Shown here: one piece after another, positions 15,127-60,748 of the stretch
Position numbering within the stretch: the stretch's first letter is position 1
Layout of the letters: every line of letters starts with the position of its first letter
Assembly (NCBI GenBank): GCA_028715985.1
Contig: JAQUQR010000001.1
Coordinates: 1-64,000 of the forward strand
DNA: 64,000 nucleotides
Source: Methanocellales archaeon
Lineage (GTDB): Archaea; Halobacteriota; UBA148
Direction: 5' to 3'
Notes under the pieces: generated by a model
Database searches by the model: none
What the model was told of the DNA's origin: nothing
Seen by the model: the letters and a program-made list of their open reading frames with translations, nothing else
Position numbers and translations under genes: made by a program

Positions 15127-17961
15127 ATGGAAGAGATGAAAATAATTAAACAAGATACTAAAAAATGGCTTTTAAATATACTTGATCCCGCCAATACTTT
15201 TAGTTTAGGGAAGTTACTTGAGGTAATCGCTCAAAGAATTGCTGAAAGAACACATGGTGAGGATTGTACTATATATCTACTAAAAGACAAAGAAAATAAG
15301 TTGGTGTTATCTGCAGCTACTCGTCCAGTCTTTGCTGAATTAATTGGTGAGGAAGAAGCGGAATATAAACCAAATGAGGGGCTCACTGGTTGGGTCTTTC
15401 AAAAAAAGGAGTCTTTAAAAATCAAGGATGTACACAACAAAAACGAGCTCAGACAAATTTCTCCGGATTTAGTGTGGAGAGATAAATTAGGAACTTTTAC
15501 TCGATTTCCAGTTAGAAATCGATCAATATTAGTTGCTCCTATCCATACAAAGGAAAGTGCGGGTGCTATAGGGGTTATATTAGTAACAGTAGCAACTGAT
15601 AGTGAATTTTCCGATAAGGATAAAATATGCCTCGAAGAGGATGCCATCAATTTAGCATACCTTTTAGAAGAGATGGATTTGTATAGAAATAATAACTCTT
15701 GGGTCGCTAATCTAAAGATTGGTAGTACTCGAAGTAAGGATAAGCTACTTGAACATATAGTTAACGAAGCAGCACATATTATTGGAGTGGGGGCACTTTG
15801 TTCAATCTTTTTTTTGGATAAACAAACAACAAAATATTTTTTGAAAAAAAGCACTCATAAAGAATTTGAAGATGAATACAAAAAACAAAATTTATCATAT
15901 GGGGTTGGCGAGGGTAAGACTGGGTGGGTTGCAAAAAATAACAAAACACTAAAAATAGATGATTTAGATGATAAAATTCTTTTAGAGAGGTATGGACTAT
16001 TAAGTGAAAGTACAAAAAGAGAAATATGTGAAACAATATCTCAGTTTGGGGAGCAAGCGAAATCTTTTCTTGCCGTTCCAATTAGAAATATTAATAACAA
16101 AAATGAAGTTATCGGCATTATCCGAGTGCCTAGTACAAAAAAGAATGCATTCACTGATGAACACACAATCCTGCTTGAACGCTTTGCAGACCAATTATCA
16201 CCCATCATTGAGGAATCTAGGATATTTGAGGCAAGGAACGAGTTGGTAGACACTTTTCTTGAAATGGCACAAATCCAGGACTTAAAATTGTTGTACCAAA
16301 GAATGGCTGATGAAGGAAAATTACTTGTTGATGCTGGTGGATGTTCTGTTTTTATAAAATCTAAAAGTGATCCAGAATGTTTTGAACTTAAGGGAACTAC
16401 ATCCCCCCCATCTTCCCCTATTGATGAAATAGCTGTTAAATCTGGGAGGGGTCTTACTGGGTATGTAGTCCAAACAGGAAAAACTCTGTGTTTACGGAAC
16501 GCTGAGGACGAAAAAGAGCTCGATGAGATTGAAAAAGGTCTTCGGAGACTTGGTGAGTATTGTGAGGTTAAGAGAGTTGGACCATTTTTAGCAGTTCCTG
16601 TTAAGACAACAAATACCCTAACTGGAAAGGAAGATGTAATTGGAGTAGTTCGTGCGCCTCGCGAATATGAAAAAATTGATACTCAAGAGTTTTACACTGA
16701 AGCTGATAAACATCTATTTCAGTTTTTTGCAAGATATCTAAGTCTAGTTATTTCTAGGGTTAAAAGAGAAGCAGATGATCGAATAAGAATAAAACAATTT
16801 GAAAAATCTGAGAAGGAAAGAAGAGAAAATTTCGAAAATATTTTCTCTAAGTGTCTGCTTGAAAAATGTCGCGATATATCTGAACTTAGTTATACACCGC
16901 AAATTCAAAAATTTTTATCTCATTACCCATCATCAGGAGACTTAAAATCGGGTATGGATAAAGTCAAAATTAAATCTCCAATTGAAGCCGTTTTAGACTC
17001 CATTAGTTCGCTTTGGCAAATAGATGAGATGGAAAAATACAATTGTAATTTATTTAATGAACTAAAAAATATAGAAGTTTTGCTAAAAGAGATCCCCCAC
17101 TATCGAGATCATTTTATGCATCAGTTTCAAGTGTTTCTTTTAGGATGTTGTATAATCGATAAGATGTACAAGTTTAAGAAGACTAAAAATTTTTCTACTT
17201 TTTCTGATTTATATTTTAAGTCAATTGAAAATACTTTGTCTGGCAATCAAAAATTTAGTGAGGATGAAAAACGTAAAATAGCTGAGACTGCTTGGCTAAT
17301 TGCCTCGACAACCCACGATCTTTGTTATCCCCTAGAAAGGTTCGATGATTGGATAGGTATATTTATTTCTACTTTCTTTAGCACTGAGAAGAAGTTGGTG
17401 GGTGATATTGAGTTAACAAAACTTGCAGGTGAAGCACTACCATATATAGATAGATGGGCAGAGTTTTGTGGGCAATCAATGAAGATTGGAAGTGATCTTG
17501 TAAATAGTCTAAAATCTAAGTTTCTCGATAAAATGGGTGAGAGAGATCATGGAGTTCTTGGAGCTCTTTCTATCTTGAGTAAAAATGTAATGAATAATGA
17601 AATAATTTTACCTGCAAGTATCGCCATTGCTTCACATAAGAAAATGCTATCTGATTTTCCAGATATAACATTCGAAGATTCTCCACTGGTTTTTCTCTTG
17701 AATTATTGCGACATGGTACATGAATGGGGGCGATGTAAAGATGTTGGATTTGAGGAGGAACTGCGCTTATTGGAAAAGCTAGAAATTTCTCCAAAAAATA
17801 TAAGAACTGAAATAAAACTGGGGGATAGAAAAAAAGCAAAGAATAAACTCGAAGAGTTACGGGGTTGTTTTTCAAAATTAAGGTCTTCTAAACCTATTTT
17901 TTGTATTTACATTAAAGATATTCCTGATGGAGTGGACTCCACATTCAGTGGAAGACAATAG
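15127..17961 (+). CDS. Three-GAF-domain protein with C-terminal HD domain
   Basis: This 944-residue, probably soluble signalling protein has three GAF-type sensor domains in tandem (about residues 20-185, 200-360 and 380-550). Each contains the repeated core GLTGWVFQ / GKTGWVAK / GLTGYVVQ followed by FLAVP-like segments. A coiled linker (about 555-640) leads to a C-terminal HD-type domain. Its candidate metal ligands appear in order: H662 and H665 (DHFMHQ), H730-D731 (THDLCYP), H808 (RDHGV), H837 (ASHKK) and D862 (NYCDMVHEW). This suggests a ligand-controlled phosphohydrolase or phosphodiesterase; the substrate is unknown. Base use is more AT-rich than the core genes, suggesting transfer. A TATA-like ATTTATATTA lies about 35 bases upstream. 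Confidence 0.75.
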   Translation: MEEMKIIKQDTKKWLLNILDPANTFSLGKLLEVIAQRIAERTHGEDCTIYLLKDKENKLVLSAATRPVFAELIGEEEAEYKPNEGLTGWVFQKKESLKIKDVHNKNELRQISPDLVWRDKLGTFTRFPVRNRSILVAPIHTKESAGAIGVILVTVATDSEFSDKDKICLEEDAINLAYLLEEMDLYRNNNSWVANLKIGSTRSKDKLLEHIVNEAAHIIGVGALCSIFFLDKQTTKYFLKKSTHKEFEDEYKKQNLSYGVGEGKTGWVAKNNKTLKIDDLDDKILLERYGLLSESTKREICETISQFGEQAKSFLAVPIRNINNKNEVIGIIRVPSTKKNAFTDEHTILLERFADQLSPIIEESRIFEARNELVDTFLEMAQIQDLKLLYQRMADEGKLLVDAGGCSVFIKSKSDPECFELKGTTSPPSSPIDEIAVKSGRGLTGYVVQTGKTLCLRNAEDEKELDEIEKGLRRLGEYCEVKRVGPFLAVPVKTTNTLTGKEDVIGVVRAPREYEKIDTQEFYTEADKHLFQFFARYLSLVISRVKREADDRIRIKQFEKSEKERRENFENIFSKCLLEKCRDISELSYTPQIQKFLSHYPSSGDLKSGMDKVKIKSPIEAVLDSISSLWQIDEMEKYNCNLFNELKNIEVLLKEIPHYRDHFMHQFQVFLLGCCIIDKMYKFKKTKNFSTFSDLYFKSIENTLSGNQKFSEDEKRKIAETAWLIASTTHDLCYPLERFDDWIGIFISTFFSTEKKLVGDIELTKLAGEALPYIDRWAEFCGQSMKIGSDLVNSLKSKFLDKMGERDHGVLGALSILSKNVMNNEIILPASIAIASHKKMLSDFPDITFEDSPLVFLLNYCDMVHEWGRCKDVGFEEELRLLEKLEISPKNIRTEIKLGDRKKAKNKLEELRGCFSKLRSSKPIFCIYIKDIPDGVDSTFSGRQ

Positions 17962-53023: not shown

Positions 53024-53812
53024 ATGGAATCAAGACAATACCATATCGATTGTTGTCAAGGAGATGTAGCACGGTATGTTTTGTTACCTGGTGATCCTGC
53101 ACGCATATCAATCATCTCCAAATTATGGGCCAGCTTTCGAGAGGTGGCGAGACACAGGGAATACAGCACCAACACAGGGGTGTACAAAGGAGTGCCCATT
53201 AGCGCCGTCTCCACTGGAATCGGTAGCCCATCTGCTGGAATCGCAGTAGAGGAGCTGGCAAGAATTGGCGCTGACACGATGATAAGGGTTGGAAGTTGCG
53301 GTGCGATTCAGCCACATATCAATTGTGGCGATCTTGTGATATCCACTGGGGCAGTACGCCTCGAGGGAACAAGCAAACAATACATATGCTCGGAATATCC
53401 AGCTGTTGCGAGCTATGAGGTCGTGTTGTCACTGATAGAGGCAGCAGAAATCTTAGGATGTACATACCATGTGGGAATTACCGCATCGACGGACTCTTTC
53501 TATTGCGGACAAGGGAGAGCTGGGTTCAGTGGACATAAATCGAGCATGACAAATAATTTGATGTCAGATCTTCAGAGAGCAGGTGTGCTTAACTTAGAAA
53601 TGGAGACAGCAGCCATCTTCACGTTAGCAAACCTCTTCGGGCTCAGGGCCGGATCCATTTGCACGGTGTTCGCAGTTAGCCCAGACAAGTTTGAGTTAAA
53701 GGGAGAGCAAGATGCAGCCCAAGTTGCTAGTGAGGCGGTTAAGATACTCAGTGAATGGGATGTAAGGAAAGAGAAACGCGATAAGAAATATTGGTATCCT
53801 TCTTTAATGTGA
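53024..53812 (+). CDS. Nucleoside phosphorylase, uridine phosphorylase-like
   Basis: This 262-residue enzyme of the NP-I family has VLLPGDPARISIIS with the phosphate-binding segment, STGIGSPSAGIAVEEL, MIRVGSCGAIQ and LEMETAAIFTLA. The pattern is nearest to uridine phosphorylase. It cleaves the nucleoside glycosidic bond with phosphate. It lies nine bases before the MTA-phosphorylase homologue, forming a nucleoside salvage pair. Confidence 0.88.
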   Translation: MESRQYHIDCCQGDVARYVLLPGDPARISIISKLWASFREVARHREYSTNTGVYKGVPISAVSTGIGSPSAGIAVEELARIGADTMIRVGSCGAIQPHINCGDLVISTGAVRLEGTSKQYICSEYPAVASYEVVLSLIEAAEILGCTYHVGITASTDSFYCGQGRAGFSGHKSSMTNNLMSDLQRAGVLNLEMETAAIFTLANLFGLRAGSICTVFAVSPDKFELKGEQDAAQVASEAVKILSEWDVRKEKRDKKYWYPSLM

Positions 53813-53821
53813 GATGATCCT

Positions 53822-54592
53822 ATGAGAATTGCCATAATAGGTGGAAGCGGTGTTTATGACATTGCATTGCTTGAGTCAAGAGAAGAAATCATCAAGACGG
53901 AATATGGTGCTGCCAATATAACTAAGGGGCAGTATGGGGATAGGGAGATCGTCTTTCTTGCAAGGCATGGTAAAGGTCATGGGATACCCCCCCATAAGAT
54001 CAATCACCGAGCTAATATTGCTGCACTGAAAGCCCTGGGAGTCGAAAGGATTATTGGAACGACTGCTGTGGGGGGCATAAATTCTAGCATGAAACCGGGT
54101 GATTTCATATTACTGGATCAATTTCTGGATTTTACGAAGCAAACTCTGACGTTTCATGATGAAGAGGTTGCACACATTGAAATGACAAATCCCTATTGTC
54201 CGGGGCTTAGGAAAATCATCCTGCAAGCATCAAAAGCACTGGAAATGAGCTTGCATGAAAAAGGAACCTATGTCTGCGTCGAAGGTCCGCGATTTGAAAC
54301 TAGTGCGGAGATACAGATGTTTGCACTTCTTGGAGGGGATGTGGTGGGAATGACAGTCGCCAAAGAGTGCATCTTGGCTAGGGAAGTTGGAATCTGTTAC
54401 GCTGCCATAGCACTGGTTGCAAACCCGGCAGCAGGCATCTCATATGAAGAGCCTGGAATTCGCCAGATAATCTCTTTTATGGAGTCTAAACAGGAACGTC
54501 TCAGCAAACTTCTCAGGAAGACCCTTTCGATTTTACCGGAAGAGAGAAGTTGTGAATGTGGGGATAAGCCTGATAGGGCATCTATATGTTGA
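53822..54592 (+). CDS. MTA/MTI phosphorylase family protein
   Basis: This 256-residue trimeric-type nucleoside phosphorylase has IAIIGGSGVYD, RHGKGHGIPPHKINHRANI, TTAVGGINSSMKPGDF and CVEGPRFETSAEIQMFA. It salvages methylthio-nucleosides from polyamine and SAM metabolism. At the base-recognition site it has Asn201 (VANPAAG) where human MTAP has Asp. This suggests a 6-oxopurine such as methylthioinosine as substrate, as in the deaminating archaeal pathway. That specificity is inferred, not shown. Confidence 0.85.
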   Translation: MRIAIIGGSGVYDIALLESREEIIKTEYGAANITKGQYGDREIVFLARHGKGHGIPPHKINHRANIAALKALGVERIIGTTAVGGINSSMKPGDFILLDQFLDFTKQTLTFHDEEVAHIEMTNPYCPGLRKIILQASKALEMSLHEKGTYVCVEGPRFETSAEIQMFALLGGDVVGMTVAKECILAREVGICYAAIALVANPAAGISYEEPGIRQIISFMESKQERLSKLLRKTLSILPEERSCECGDKPDRASIC

Positions 54593-54732
54593 TGTTGAGC
54601 AAGACTTTTAGTTATCCAATGGTTATCCAATTATATACTAAAGAAATATTAGCTCTTTGAATGCTGTGTAAGATATTCGAACCAGCATTTGAACTCATAC
54701 ATATATGCTAACTTTGTGCTGTTTAATTTATA

Positions 54733-57594
54733 TTAAGGCTCTATTGTTTTAAACCTATCAAACTCACTTCTTCTTAAGTCTATTTCCCGCTCAACACGGG
54801 CGTTTTCACATTTTATGCGATTTTGGAGATACGCCATATAAGATTTGGCAAATGAGGAAACAGATTCATTAGGATCATCTTTCCATGACGTTATATCTTT
54901 AATTTTCTCTTCATAGGCTTTTACTAAACCGTACTCCCCTCCAACAAATCTTATATGGGAAAGAATAGATTGAAGCTCTAATCTTAATTCGTGCGAAACC
55001 TCGAAATTTTTAACAATTTCCTTGATGATCTCCAATACATCAGGACTTCCTTCATATTTATCTAAAATCCAAAGAATATAGTCTAATTTTGTAGTATCTT
55101 TTGTTTTTATTATTTGAATCAATTTACCCTTAATATCTCCTTCTATTTTTGGGAATATTATGTTGAATAAACAGCTTGCTCCCCATCTTAGCTTCCCATC
55201 ACCGTTTTCAAACCATTTGAAAATCTCTTTAATTATCAAATCACTATTTTTGTTTAATTTACCAGTTAATAACTGAAAATCAAAAGGAATTGAATCAATC
55301 AACTTTACGCCACTTTCTTTATTTTTAACACGCTTATAGAAAAAATCAATAATCCTCTCAGGTTCTTTTTCAGCTAAAGGCAATAAAACTTGTTCAGTAT
55401 AATAATCCACGACCTTTTTCATAACTAGATTTTTTAGAATGATTTCATATTCATCAACAGATAAATCCTTACTGATTTCATCTGTAAGATATGATACTTT
55501 CTGTGGCCATTCATAAAAAGATAAATCCGTCATTTTATCTATTATTTTTACAAATAACGCCTTAAGGTTCTTATTATTAGAATACTGTCCACATATCGTG
55601 TGTAAAATTGCAAGAATAGATGAAATCTCACCATTTTTCAATATCTTGTTCGTGAGATCTGATAGCAGACACTCATCTATGTCTTTAACTGAGAAAAATG
55701 CAGATGCAATTTCAGATAAAGATTCACTCTTTTTTATCATTGTTTTGATATCCTTTTTAATTTGGCTCTTTTTATCACTTCCCAACAACCCAATTAGCAA
55801 AGCTACTCTAAATTTAGATAATTCGGAAATATCAAGGAGTTTTCTACCTTCGTTTGGTTTTTTGACTGCTAACTTATATAAAAAATAATGAACATTCTGG
55901 TATTCTCCTTGATTCTGGTCATTATAATCAGCCAATATTTCTGTTACTAAATAATTTTTCCATTCATTCAAGTTTTTGTCTGTGATTTGAATAACATAAC
56001 TTTCAATTTGTTCTTTTCTTTCTTTTTCTATCTGTTCGAAGTCTGAACCATAATCTAAGCCATAACCCACAAATGTTTTGTATTTTAGGTAATTCTCATC
56101 ACCTGATAGCTTTCCCTTTATCTCTTTCAGCTTTTCAGATTCGTTACCCGTTCCAGAAAACCATATTAAATGCTTCTCAATGGCTCTTTTATTGTAGTTT
56201 TTTATTTTGTCATAATTTTGGATCAAAAAGGAAAGAATAGTATCAATATTTTCACGCATAGTTTTAGTATGCTCTTCTGTTGTCTTCCCATTATGTATTG
56301 GAGATGAAGAATTAAACAATGCGGTGATAATCTTTTCTGATTCTCTACAATCTTGTTCGTTCTCAAACAATTTAATTAACAATTGTATAGAGTCGTGCCT
56401 GATCTCTTTAATCTTGTCCTTAATGGGTATTGGACCCATAATCAATGTGAATGTATCAAACTGTTCCTGTGCCGAGCCTTCAATTGTGTTATTCAATAAA
56501 GAACCGCATATGGAAATCAAAGCGTCTTTAATTTCTGTATTTTCACTGTCTAATTGAGAGATTCTCTCAATCAATATTTTTTGAGGGGTATAACCAATCG
56601 CTCTAACTGCATTTAAATCATATTTTCCAAATACCTTAAGTGTTTCAAGACATTCTTTTCGGAATAGGTCTTCAGAACATTTATTCACACAAAGTTCAAT
56701 AATTCGTTTATAATCCCAATACTTAACAGATCTAATAAATCTAAAAGAAGCAGTGATAATATCTTGACTCTTTTTGGTCTTCGAGTTACCATCATTCTGT
56801 TTTGATTTGTTCCAAATATCTTCTAAAATAGGTAAAAAATCAAACTCTTCTGGCAACCTATAATAACTCGAAAAAATATTTAACTTATCCATATACTCTA
56901 GTATTTTTTCATTTGAACCCAACTGAGAGAGTTCTTTTAGTTTGTCGATATTTAGTATTTGTTTGCCCTCTTTAAGTCTCTCGAATTGATCAACAATAAA
57001 TGAAAAATTATAACTAGCTTTAGTAATATATTTTGACATTACCTGAGCTAGTTTTTCCTTTAAGAAATCAAAATCTTTTGGAGAGAAATTCATCAGTTCT
57101 TGATCTGGTTTATATATTATATCACGATTTATCTCCGACCAAGCATGGAAAAGAGGAGTTGTAAGTTGTATTTCACAAATTAAATCTTTGAAATTGGTGT
57201 ATTCAACAAGTTTTTCCCTTGCATTATCTAATTTTACAATAATGTGAAGAGCATTATAATTATCGGGGCTACGTTTATCCTTGATATCTTCTATTTTCAA
57301 TTCTTGTTTGATAAATTCACTAAATTTGTAGATATCCTCTTCTAAATAAAAAATCACCCGACAACCAGCTAAGTCGTGAATATTGTTAATTAAATTTGGG
57401 TTGTTTTCAAGTTTTTTCCGTAATGAATCTATGTCTTTGCTTCTAGACTGAATTTGTTGATATTTGAAGTGTTTCGATTTTAGGATTTGTTCAAGAATGG
57501 CAGATACAGACTTGGCAAAATCGGTGTACTTTGTTCTTGATTTTTCATAGTTTTCAACAAACTTATTTATCTTCTCTTTGGTTTTACTATCCAT
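54733..57594 (-). CDS. RelA/SpoT-domain protein with long helical-repeat tail
   Basis: This 953-residue protein starts with a RelA/SpoT nucleotidyltransferase domain (about residues 30-165). Numbering from the ATG at 57600, visible catalytic-type residues are D76 and R81 (HDLAGCRVIFYL), Y115 and H119 (NYNALHIIVK), and E143-Q145 (CEIQLTTPLFHAW, ending in IIYK). Such domains make or consume (p)ppGpp-like alarmones, or pyrophosphorylate tRNA in toxin versions. The remaining 780 residues are mostly helical with HEAT-like spacing and no recognised motif. There is no hydrolase HD domain. Strong AT bias points to transfer. The ATG at 57594 has AGG eight bases upstream; 57600 is possible. Confidence 0.75.
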   Translation of the reverse strand: MDSKTKEKINKFVENYEKSRTKYTDFAKSVSAILEQILKSKHFKYQQIQSRSKDIDSLRKKLENNPNLINNIHDLAGCRVIFYLEEDIYKFSEFIKQELKIEDIKDKRSPDNYNALHIIVKLDNAREKLVEYTNFKDLICEIQLTTPLFHAWSEINRDIIYKPDQELMNFSPKDFDFLKEKLAQVMSKYITKASYNFSFIVDQFERLKEGKQILNIDKLKELSQLGSNEKILEYMDKLNIFSSYYRLPEEFDFLPILEDIWNKSKQNDGNSKTKKSQDIITASFRFIRSVKYWDYKRIIELCVNKCSEDLFRKECLETLKVFGKYDLNAVRAIGYTPQKILIERISQLDSENTEIKDALISICGSLLNNTIEGSAQEQFDTFTLIMGPIPIKDKIKEIRHDSIQLLIKLFENEQDCRESEKIITALFNSSSPIHNGKTTEEHTKTMRENIDTILSFLIQNYDKIKNYNKRAIEKHLIWFSGTGNESEKLKEIKGKLSGDENYLKYKTFVGYGLDYGSDFEQIEKERKEQIESYVIQITDKNLNEWKNYLVTEILADYNDQNQGEYQNVHYFLYKLAVKKPNEGRKLLDISELSKFRVALLIGLLGSDKKSQIKKDIKTMIKKSESLSEIASAFFSVKDIDECLLSDLTNKILKNGEISSILAILHTICGQYSNNKNLKALFVKIIDKMTDLSFYEWPQKVSYLTDEISKDLSVDEYEIILKNLVMKKVVDYYTEQVLLPLAEKEPERIIDFFYKRVKNKESGVKLIDSIPFDFQLLTGKLNKNSDLIIKEIFKWFENGDGKLRWGASCLFNIIFPKIEGDIKGKLIQIIKTKDTTKLDYILWILDKYEGSPDVLEIIKEIVKNFEVSHELRLELQSILSHIRFVGGEYGLVKAYEEKIKDITSWKDDPNESVSSFAKSYMAYLQNRIKCENARVEREIDLRRSEFDRFKTIEP

Positions 57595-57600
57595 TATCAT

Positions 57601-57623
57601 AACCTGATTAACAACCTGATTAA
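57601..57623. repeat. Paired 11-bp repeat before the RelA/SpoT gene
   Basis: AACCTGATTAA occurs twice with one base between, directly abutting the start of the RelA/SpoT-domain gene. On the gene's strand each copy supplies AGGTT, so it may be a duplicated ribosome-binding region or an operator half-site pair. Confidence 0.6.
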
Positions 57624-57773
57624 ATAGTATTATTGTAGGTTTTTATCAACTTTATGATTTGGAGATGATATCATACCGAAAATCGAGCTTGAAATCAAAG
57701 CCCAACTGAGAAGGGTTATTCACAAAGCTTTTTGAAGCTAAACTCAAGATCACAAATTTCCTTGCAAAATAGC

Positions 57774-58340
57774 TTAGTGTTGTTTTAATGGAAAAATTCC
57801 CTCTAAGCAGTAAACAGTCAATTTGCCTTCACTTTTGTCTCTTTCACAAATAGGTGGCATATTGCATATAGGACACAGCTTATCTGTTAGCTTATTTTTA
57901 TTCACCTCAAGGGTTCCTTGTTTATAATGTAACTCGTATAAGAGCTTGAGATATTTGCCTTCTGCAATTCTCGGTACTCCATCCTTGTTTTTCAGTCCAA
58001 TCCATTCATAGAGCCTTTTACCGCCCTTGGATGAATTGCATCTTTTACATATTCTTATTGCATTGTCCGAAATGTCTGGCCCACCACAAGATCTGGGCAA
58101 AATATGCTCAACCGTCAAATTTTCCTTTGAACTACAGTAAATACATTCATTTGGCCTTTCATGCTCCTTAACCCACTCCCTGATAGCAGTCGACCAAGTT
58201 ATTTTGCCATCTCTCAAAGCAATAAAACGATCCATCTGAAAAGCTCTTTGTTTTATCCCAAATCCCACAGACTTGGAAATAATTTTAGCATATTGCCAAA
58301 AAATTTCATCCTTTATTGTTTTTACAACTGCTGGCGGCAT
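57774..58340 (-). CDS. HNH endonuclease
   Basis: This 188-residue protein has an HNH nuclease fold. Zinc cysteines are in ECIYC (C66, C69) and ICKRC (C98, C101). The catalytic strand is LTVEHILPRSCGGPD with H79, and N93 follows in ISDNAI. A second, C-terminal cysteine pair (LCPICNMPP) suggests an additional zinc site. The type is found in mobile elements and in restriction or defence loci. It lies between the RelA/SpoT gene and tRNA-Gly(CCC). Confidence 0.85.
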   Translation of the reverse strand: MPPAVVKTIKDEIFWQYAKIISKSVGFGIKQRAFQMDRFIALRDGKITWSTAIREWVKEHERPNECIYCSSKENLTVEHILPRSCGGPDISDNAIRICKRCNSSKGGKRLYEWIGLKNKDGVPRIAEGKYLKLLYELHYKQGTLEVNKNKLTDKLCPICNMPPICERDKSEGKLTVYCLEGIFPLKQH

Positions 58341-58409
58341 ATCTTCACATCTTTTCAGTTATAAAACTTGTATTTGCCCCCGTAAACCGTAATTCTCATT
58401 GCGCATGAA

Positions 58410-58481
58410 TGCGGCTGCCGGGATTTGAACCCGGGTTCTGAGCTTGGGAAGCTCATGTCATAACCACTAAACCACAGCCGC
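58410..58481 (-). tRNA. tRNA-Gly(CCC)
   Basis: On the minus strand all arms fold in 72 bases: acceptor GCGGCTG/CAGCCGC, D-stem GTTT/TGAC, anticodon stem TGAGC/GCTCA, loop TTCCCAA with anticodon CCC, and T-arm CCGGG/CCCGG with loop TTCAAAT. The discriminator is A; no CCA is encoded and there is no intron. It sits within an AT-rich block of accessory genes, a common place for integration. Confidence 0.95.
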
Positions 58482-58528
58482 ATTAGAGAGTACTATATTA
58501 TGTTTATCACACTATTTATTTAACTATG

Positions 58529-59233
58529 TTAAATATTCCTTTTTTCAGTAAGATCAAACACAGAATTTCCACCTATCTTAGCCCCTTCTAACAAAGCATT
58601 TCCACCTATCTCGGCCCCTCTGAACCAAGCATTTCCACCTATCTTAACACTCCTAAACCAAACATTTCTACTTATTCTAGCTGCCTCAAAACAAGCATTT
58701 CCACCTATCTCGGCCCCTCTGAACCAAGCATTTCCACCTATCTCGGCCCCTCTGAACCAAGCATTTCCACCTATTTTAGTTCCTCCAAACCAAGCATTTC
58801 CACCTATTTTAGTTCCTCCAAACCAAGCATTTCCACCTATCTTGCCCTCCCCAAATAAAGCACCTCCACCTATCTCAGCCCCTCTGAACAAGGCACTCCC
58901 ACCTATCTCAGCCCCTCTGAACCAAGCATGTCTACCTATTTCAACTCCATCAAACAAAGCATCTTTTCTAATAACGGCATGATTAAAATCTAGGGAATCT
59001 CTAATCTTCATCCCTGAAAAATCGATTTCAACTAATCTTGCTCCTTCAAAATTAAAATCCTCTTTGCTTACCTTTTCTTTGACTTTCTGATTTTTTGCAT
59101 CGTTTATTTCTTTGAATTCTTCACTTGATTCGTCTTCTGGGAGATCGATATGGAGTATGCAGAACTCAGAATTCTGCCAAAGCTTCTCATCACAACTCTT
59201 ACCATTACGAAATTGATATCCGCATGTTTTCAT
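58529..59233 (-). CDS. Pentapeptide-repeat protein with zinc-finger-like N-terminus
   Basis: This 234-residue protein has a short N-terminal cysteine/histidine motif (CGYQFRNGKSCDEKLW then FCILH, residues 4-28) and an acidic helical linker. About thirteen tandem 11-residue repeats of the form IGGNAWFRGAE follow, the Pentapeptide_3-type right-handed beta-helix. Several repeats are identical, so the array expanded recently. Some pentapeptide proteins mimic DNA or protect gyrase; many have no known role. Confidence 0.85.
   Translation of the reverse strand: MKTCGYQFRNGKSCDEKLWQNSEFCILHIDLPEDESSEEFKEINDAKNQKVKEKVSKEDFNFEGARLVEIDFSGMKIRDSLDFNHAVIRKDALFDGVEIGRHAWFRGAEIGGSALFRGAEIGGGALFGEGKIGGNAWFGGTKIGGNAWFGGTKIGGNAWFRGAEIGGNAWFRGAEIGGNACFEAARISRNVWFRSVKIGGNAWFRGAEIGGNALLEGAKIGGNSVFDLTEKRNI
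58550..58965. repeat. 33-bp tandem repeat array
   Basis: About twelve units of 33 bases, in the plus orientation of the type AAGCATTTCCACCTATCTCG plus 13 more, lie inside the pentapeptide-repeat gene. Some adjacent units are identical. Copy number is likely to vary between strains. Confidence 0.85.
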
Positions 59234-59385
59234 TTTATCACCTCCCCTGAATTCGTATGTATCGTATCGAAAAGCGATAAATTGCTAACGTGGTACATCT
59301 TATATTAGATTGGTATATATGAAATAGTTTTCATCTCAATAGTGCCAGTTTTTATATCTCAATACAATAGAAAAAGGGTTATTCA

Positions 59386-60036
59386 ATGATAACGCTCAAA
59401 AATCTTGAAAATCCAGCCAGAGACGTAAAATTCCTCTTGGATCGGGGGTATACTTCCACCAGTGTCATTCGGTTTGTAGGTAACCACTATAAACTTTCGC
59501 TGTCAGATAGGCATTTGATAACCAGGGCAGTGTTGCCCTCTAGTATTGCACAAAAACGGAGAGATAAGCTGGTAACATGCAATGAAATGAAAGGCTTAGA
59601 ACTTCTCATAGACGGATACAATGTCTTGATCACTATGGAAAGCGTGCTAGATCAAGAGATCGTTTTATGTGATGATGGTTTTATCAGAGATATAAAAGGT
59701 GTTTTTGGGAAATATAAAAAGACTGATGCTACTGATGTTGCTCTCACCGAGATCTTAACCCTGCTGTCTGAAATCTCTCCATCTTTTGTTTTATTCCTCT
59801 TTGATTCAAAGGTTAGCAAGAGTGGGGAGCTGGCCAGATATGTTAGAGATAAGCTAACCCAGTTCGGACTAGGGGGTGACACAGAAACGCTAAGTAGCGT
59901 TGACCACAAGCTGAAGACGTGTAATGCAATAGTAGCTACAAGTGACGGAAATATCATTGACTCCGTAGATGCGGTAATTGATATGCCTCAATGTGTCATG
60001 AAAATTCGTGGAATAGTTCCATTTCAAATTAAATAA
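59386..60036 (+). CDS. DUF434-family protein
   Basis: This 216-residue protein has an N-terminal helical DUF434 region (ARDVKFLLDRGYTSTSVIRF, then LSLSDRHLITRAVLPSS). The second half is PIN-like or DUF5616-like with LLIDGYNVLITMES and ALTEILTLLSEISPSF. The conserved acidic residues IDGYN and FLFDSK suggest a nuclease fold, but activity is untested. It stands alone. Confidence 0.75.
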   Translation: MITLKNLENPARDVKFLLDRGYTSTSVIRFVGNHYKLSLSDRHLITRAVLPSSIAQKRRDKLVTCNEMKGLELLIDGYNVLITMESVLDQEIVLCDDGFIRDIKGVFGKYKKTDATDVALTEILTLLSEISPSFVLFLFDSKVSKSGELARYVRDKLTQFGLGGDTETLSSVDHKLKTCNAIVATSDGNIIDSVDAVIDMPQCVMKIRGIVPFQIK

Positions 60037-60244
60037 ATATGTCGAAAATAAACATGGTGTCAAATATTAAATATGACTATAATCTATATAAATAAAATAA
60101 TAAAATAAGAAAAACCAAGACACACCCAAATTCAGTTAAATCCCCCATAATAGAATCCAACGCTTATAATAAATAGGACCCAGCGATCGTAAAAAGCTTA
60201 TTATGTATGTTTACATCATTATATAGCAGATAGGTATCCAAATC

Positions 60245-60748
60245 ATGAAATTCAGAATTGGCTTGGTTTTGGTTTTAGTATTGAGCGTGCTGACAGTAAC
60301 TTTTTCAGGATGCGTCGGAGAAGAGCTAGTCATGCCCTCCCAGCCCATAGCACCAAGGGCTGAAGCTGCTCCGACACCAACTCCAAAGCCAACACCAATT
60401 CCAATTGCAACTCCTGTACCAACTCAGACCCAAACTCAAGAAGTATCTCAGCTGAAACAAATAAAATTCTCAGGATGTGAGTCAGGAATTACGCCAGTAT
60501 TTCAACTAGAAAGCGGCACATTCATATTTAGGATGAAGAATGATGCCCCCTCTAATTTTACAGTTTTGCTCGTAGACGTTCGGGCCATCGAGTTCTGCGG
60601 GTGCTGTTACCAATACATAACTGCTGTTCCCGTTGATACAATTGGTCCTTTTGATGGAGTAAAAACCGTTGAGATATTTGAGTCTGGGGATTACATTTTA
60701 GACGTAAAAGCAGAAGGCCAGTGGTCGATAATCATTGAACAACCCTAA
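60245..60748 (+). CDS. Secreted lipoprotein with Thr/Pro linker
   Basis: This 167-residue protein has a signal peptide and lipobox (VLTVTFSGCVGEE, Cys at residue 23). A Thr/Pro/Ala-rich linker (APTPTPKPTPIPIATPVPTQ) is followed by a compact beta domain with several cysteines (FSGCESG, FCGCCYQY). The C-terminal segment (SGDYILDVKAEGQWSIIIEQ) resembles beta-sandwich surface domains. It is anchored outside the membrane; its ligand is unknown. Confidence 0.7.
   Translation: MKFRIGLVLVLVLSVLTVTFSGCVGEELVMPSQPIAPRAEAAPTPTPKPTPIPIATPVPTQTQTQEVSQLKQIKFSGCESGITPVFQLESGTFIFRMKNDAPSNFTVLLVDVRAIEFCGCCYQYITAVPVDTIGPFDGVKTVEIFESGDYILDVKAEGQWSIIIEQP

Follow-up and report, generated by a model that had tools for sequence, protein, structure and literature searches.

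What does a RelA/SpoT-type synthetase that continues into a long helical tail do in an archaeon, and how did it arrive there? The question is raised by a single gene in a 64,000-nucleotide stretch of DNA from a Methanocellales archaeon, referred to here as the window. RelA/SpoT enzymes are rare in archaea, as a first-pass annotation of the window had stated, and they were found in 12 of 276 genomes of the host's phylum. The archaeal fusion, an apparently intact synthetase carried on a foreign insert, is a testable case.

The fusion gene and its synthetase domain

The fusion gene lies at 54733..57600 on the minus strand and encodes 955 aa, with no internal stop, from the ATG at 57600; an alternative ATG at 57594, which was the start adopted at first pass, gives a protein of 953 aa. 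The gene is present in a single copy in its 1.5-Mb genome, and the AT bias noticed earlier is real, with 30% GC in the region of the gene compared with about 45% nearby (44–46% in the flanking DNA). The AlphaFold model of the whole protein (15-row alignment; mean pLDDT 80.6, pTM 0.57) has an alpha/beta synthetase at its start; the rest is a long series of helices with a single beta hairpin.

RelA_SpoT was the only Pfam domain detected above the cut-off along the 955 aa. The match to PF04607 was significant (E=6.7e-14; 52.6 bits, with the cut-off at 27) and covered residues 52–167 and profile positions 1–112 of 113, which agrees with the alarmone-synthetase signature read from the sequence at first pass. 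We place the synthetase domain at about residues 44–167 (57100..57471, minus strand), with R53, K55, D76, R81, Y115, H119, E143 and Q145 as its key residues. Six of these (D76, E143, R53, K55, R81 and Q145) are invariant across 12 aligned members of the family, and the G-loop residues Y115 and H119 are retained in the archaeal protein. D76 and E143, which had been proposed as catalytic, line up with the DIAG and EIQIRT motifs in the synthetase site of solved SAS enzymes, and Y115 is aligned as well. When the family profile of this domain was compared with solved enzymes, YwaC (1e-17) and YjbM (1e-13) scored better than CapRel (7e-6), and thus the synthetase of the fusion family is nearer to YwaC and YjbM than to CapRel by sequence. 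Neither an HD hydrolase nor a TGS or ACT domain was found in the fusion protein by Pfam and NCBIfam scans, as the first-pass annotation had also concluded. Judged from its sequence, the fusion protein is a RelA/SpoT synthetase with intact catalytic residues and no hydrolase. It forms a long branch, with an identity of about 23%. Since one branch of the family, the Sphingomonas type (L003, L024, L073 and L074), is devoid of the G-loop histidine, chemistry or activity may vary among members.

A recent insertion at tRNA-Gly(CCC)

The fusion gene is located within an inserted element of about 3.74 kb and about 30% GC (54665..58405) at the 3′ end of tRNA-Gly; this element is missing in three genomes of the same genus (G036, G026 and G071). 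Blastn of positions 53500–60500 of the window against G036 and G026 showed that both are collinear with it as far as 54664 (92% identity) and once more beyond the insert, where the alignment resumes at 58406 (86%), and that the two flanking blocks meet in these genomes with an overlap of 6–7 bp, leaving an empty site. G071 is organized likewise, with a purine-phosphorylase gene about 70 bp from tRNA-Gly. The empty site supports a recent mobile acquisition, in line with the mobile module suggested at first pass. The insert begins exactly at the 3′ end of tRNA-Gly(CCC) (58409..58482, minus strand), the integration target, which is itself intact. No integrase gene was detected in the 3.74-kb insert, and a full att direct repeat was sought at its ends and was absent, a degenerate likeness to the tRNA 3′ end being all that was seen. 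This stretch (54658..54695, plus strand), which lies at the distal boundary and may be the 3′ end of tRNA-Gly in a decayed copy, shares TGAATGC, then degenerates, and includes the B-box-like TTCGAACC; as equal-scoring matches occur nearby, it is suggestive only.

Apart from the fusion gene, the insert holds only a gene for an HNH endonuclease (HNH_5 by Pfam, 188 aa; 57774..58340, minus strand), which may be a passenger or possibly a mobility gene of the insert. Like the insert, it is missing from the same-genus genomes. The first-pass annotation had regarded the HNH gene and a neighbouring pentapeptide-repeat gene as parts of one mobile module. The former does share the insert with the fusion gene, while the latter has to be removed from the module, being present in relatives without the insertion. 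A functional partnership of the HNH protein with the synthetase was not borne out either: in other archaea, the relatives of the gene have unrelated surroundings, and we rejected it as a conserved partner given that none of the relatives examined lies beside RelA/SpoT or tRNA genes. No defence island was seen around the archaeal copy.

The pentapeptide-repeat gene itself (58529–59233) carries nine Pentapeptide_3 copies, adjoins tRNA-Gly and is ancestral in the genus; its repeat number may vary between genomes, since several overlapping repeat alignments to the relatives were obtained. Elsewhere in the window, an AT-rich ORF (15127–17961; 35% GC) encodes 944 aa that, by eye, resemble several GAF domains with a helical, possibly HD-like C-terminus.

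The solenoid tail, its family and its partners

The tail of about 780 aa (residues 174–952; 54745..57081, minus strand), which we propose to be both sensor and autoinhibitor, is homologous along its length to stand-alone tails and to the C-termini of STAND proteins. In the AlphaFold model helices extend across residues 174–952, apart from a predicted beta hairpin at residues 372–390 (56431..56487, minus strand) that lies in a family-conserved motif, D-x-V-x-L...G-x-V/I-P...R. Foldseek matched the tail to karyopherin and HEAT-type solenoids at low TM scores (about 0.1–0.36, most 0.15–0.35), and the tail is thus predicted to be a HEAT/karyopherin-like solenoid in the sense of a fold class and not of a specific relative, in line with the HEAT-type repeats surmised at first pass. 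Karyopherins, CRM1 and CAND1 were rejected as specific relatives (TM about 0.1–0.36, rmsd above 13), and Foldseek against a viral library returned no match at E<=0.001. The HEAT fold is generic, and a receptor role for it is our inference.

Scans of genome contigs and viral contigs with the fusion protein as a single query revealed no relative; it took a tblastn search of plasmids and a three-row alignment to reach the distant family. Among the plasmids, tblastn identified fused homologues of full length (98% coverage) from Rhizobium and Sphingobium (E=6e-63 and 2e-54) and, in Legionella and Pseudanabaena, matches to the tail alone, and the genome scan with the three-row alignment added 15 loci. 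The tail is fused to RelA/SpoT in Proteobacteria, Nitrospira, Desulfomonile and cyanobacteria. Surveys with the tail profile, seeds included, covered two phyla, in which it was present in 2/295 (that of the archaeon) and 2/246 genomes (that of Sedimentisphaerales), and three classes, those of Pseudanabaena (3/291), Dyella (3/369) and Sphingomonas (4/337); by this profile the tail is a conserved yet sporadic family, found in about 1% of the surveyed genomes. Nothing was found for the tail in the viral contigs searched, where the sole phage match was limited to the synthetase region. The tail tree is at odds with taxonomy, with Nitrospira, Gallionella, Desulfomonile and Rhizobium members intermixed. 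We found no description of the family in the literature searched, which comprised open-access papers.

The tail is also paired with other proteins. At six loci (three in Legionella, two in Pseudanabaena and one in Sedimentisphaerales), a stand-alone tail gene lies directly behind a PIN_12 nuclease gene, whose product is modelled with a PIN domain and a winged-helix-like end that are connected by a flexible linker. Two more stand-alone tails (L014 and L072) lie behind a partner with a different N-terminus, without a Pfam match there, and these partners have in common with the PIN proteins a C-terminal adaptor of about 85 aa (L014 against PIN proteins, 3e-7 to 2e-3; L072 against L014, 2e-4). The L014 partner (231 aa, no Pfam match) looks by eye like a PD-(D/E)XK nuclease. 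A planctomycete STAND protein of 1275 aa (L077), which has HTH and AAA_16 and matches Mrr_cat weakly, terminates in the tail, and the hhalign profile comparison of this C-terminus with the tail gave 98.2% (E=2.9e-14, 548 columns). A DUF4062-nSTAND NTPase from another archaeon of the host's phylum (L049) matched the tail with its C-terminus, at 93.9% (E=1.6e-7, hhalign). The pairing of homologous tails with PIN, STAND and other effectors makes the sensor role suggested by the first-pass annotation likely. The fused and the stand-alone classes fall on opposite sides of a single branch (97/92) in the tail tree, and this single change indicates that the exchange between them took place once in our sample and is old rather than frequent.

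The surroundings of the homologues were examined as well. Genes of the anti-phage system DSR2 lie about 1 kb from Sphingomonas L024 and 2.2 kb from Rhizobium L002, i.e. within about 2.3 kb (E=7e-160 and 2e-125 for the two neighbour matches), and L072 is near the type I restriction-modification genes hsdS and hsdM. Four loci (L018, L019, L011 and L004) are beside recombinases, an integrase adjoining a tRNA gene or an ISL3 transposase; L010, L011 and L004 are close to tRNA-Met; L073 is near a relaxase gene, and some family members reside on plasmids. The surroundings of the homologues are thus mobile and defence-rich across phyla, which is not a proof of function.

Several members show peculiarities of their own. 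Rhizobium L002 (6653–10585) has an additional C-terminal poly-gamma-glutamate hydrolase domain past the tail (PF05908, E=9e-45). A cyanobacterial RelA-tail gene (L070) is interrupted by a transposase gene, and a divergent gammaproteobacterial RelA/SpoT-helical protein of 1000 aa (L075) has short HNH genes on either side. On a Pseudanabaena plasmid, a 1021-aa protein (L005, 10629–13694) with no Pfam or PADLOC match adjoins a PIN-tail pair.

Proposed function and comparison with known systems

We consider it fairly probable that the fusion is a mobile abortive-infection receptor made of one protein, whose solenoid would sense an invader and thereby set free a synthetase of toxSAS type. By analogy with CapRel and DSR2, the C-terminal solenoid would hold the N-terminal synthetase inactive and would, upon infection, bind an invader-derived or infection-altered molecule; probably it is such an infection-specific ligand that frees the enzyme. 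The freed enzyme would then use ATP as its pyrophosphate donor, with a nucleotide or the tRNA 3′ end as the acceptor, the output being probably either tRNA 3′-end pyrophosphorylation or a toxic alarmone; of the possible products, we favour pyrophosphorylated tRNA over (p)ppGpp or (p)ppApp. The resulting halt in translation or growth would prevent the virus from multiplying. Other microbes combine this receptor with quite different weapons, which suggests an antiviral alarm system of modular build. Perhaps, with about equal weight for and against, the tail is an unnamed immune-receptor module with at least four outputs (a RelA/SpoT pyrophosphotransferase in cis; a PIN RNase in trans, connected by the winged-helix adaptor; further partners, also in trans; and STAND NTPases whose effectors are DUF4062 or Mrr-like). 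In this reading, the archaeal protein would act against viruses, as an alarmone system or as one that modifies tRNA. If true, one shared sensor domain would link toxSAS immunity, DSR2-like receptors that join an enzyme to HEAT repeats, and Avs-like STAND receptors; it would also provide a handle for finding the trigger and an entry to asking whether archaea use alarmone-type chemistry against viruses.

A regulator of starvation or stress, in which the synthetase makes a (p)ppGpp or (p)ppApp signal and the solenoid senses a metabolic or translational cue of the host, would suit the intact catalytic site and the fact that the nearest solved relatives, YwaC and YjbM, are house-keeping SAS enzymes. 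We regard it as rather unlikely, however, for a gene that is missing in genomes of the same genus and carried on an insert, with homologues elsewhere adjoining defence genes; moreover, the protein has no hydrolase domain to reset the signal, and its tail is common to PIN operons and STAND NTPases, neither of which makes alarmones. Decay of a recently acquired gene has to be weighed, too. The gene is AT-rich and arrived recently, an HNH gene lies alongside and one cyanobacterial homologue is split by a transposase gene, all of which could be expected if the gene were a passenger of an HNH or tRNA-targeted element and played no part in its host at present, the case of a decaying or unexpressed gene included; but the ORF of 955 codons is intact, its catalytic residues are kept and both domains are conserved across phyla, and we hold a mere passenger to be quite unlikely.

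ToxSAS enzymes are classic toxins of toxin-antitoxin systems, and this precedent raises the alternative of an addiction or maintenance module of the tRNA-integrated element, with the tail as a cis-antitoxin that stabilizes the insert and is not primarily antiviral. The insert holds almost nothing else, and tail genes adjoin PIN genes, as such a module would have it. On the other hand, a co-encoded inhibitor that is fused to its toxin is lost at the same rate as the toxin, which precludes classic post-segregational killing, and a solenoid of about 780 aa that is common to STAND receptors fits recognition better than plain neutralization. An addiction module is therefore improbable in our view, and we return to the abortive-infection receptor.

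CapRel (CapRel SJ46, PDB 7ZTB), a fused toxSAS, is like the fusion protein in having an N-terminal synthetase, a C-terminal regulatory region and no hydrolase, and the two are expected to have an invader-driven activation from a closed to an open state in common. In CapRel, the C-terminal domain serves the same enzyme fold in two roles, as its antitoxin and as its phage sensor (PMC9712102). However, CapRel has about 373 aa and a small pseudo-zinc-finger sensor, whereas the fusion protein has a HEAT-like solenoid of about 780 aa that is common to other effectors. In DSR2, phage proteins are bound in cavities to which both the HEAT repeats and the C-terminal domain contribute (PMC11263360). This SIR2 NADase follows a similar logic, a toxic N-terminal enzyme with a large HEAT-like receptor, but its enzyme is different and the fusion protein lacks a SIR2 domain; homology of the solenoid tail to DSR2 was rejected (hhalign, 0.2%). 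A mechanism similar to those of CapRel and DSR2 is thus expected by analogy for the fusion protein.

Two STAND proteins bear the homologous tail at the C-terminus, which is the sensor position in Avs-like receptors, whereas the archaeal protein has no NTPase module and its enzyme is joined directly to the tail. The PADLOC model PDC-S33 (candidate phage defence) matched residues 5–155 of the fusion protein (E=8e-16, model positions 24–175 of 349) and stops short of the solenoid. Weak matches to Olokun OloA came from cyanobacterial L005 (E=3e-7) and from one of 15 aligned members (E=6e-5); neither the archaeal protein nor the remaining members matched the OloA model, and this identity was rejected for the archaeal protein. 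Long RSH enzymes (Rel, RelA, SpoT) have HD hydrolase, TGS and ACT domains, of which the fusion protein has none, and it shows instead the toxSAS/CapRel trait of a synthetase without hydrolase, stand-alone or fused. The other toxSAS/CapRel trait, a toxic tRNA-CCA pyrophosphorylation or (p)ppApp synthesis that an antitoxin domain neutralizes, is a prediction for the fusion protein. On domain content and profile matches, it is not a long RSH, a strict CapRel, a DSR2, a STAND or an Olokun protein. Homologous synthetases with other tails were also observed, such as L006, which has TPR. A further archaeal RelA/SpoT protein (L083, G011:C46), with a frame of 863 residues, has TPR-like repeats and a SLOG-like C-terminus by eye.
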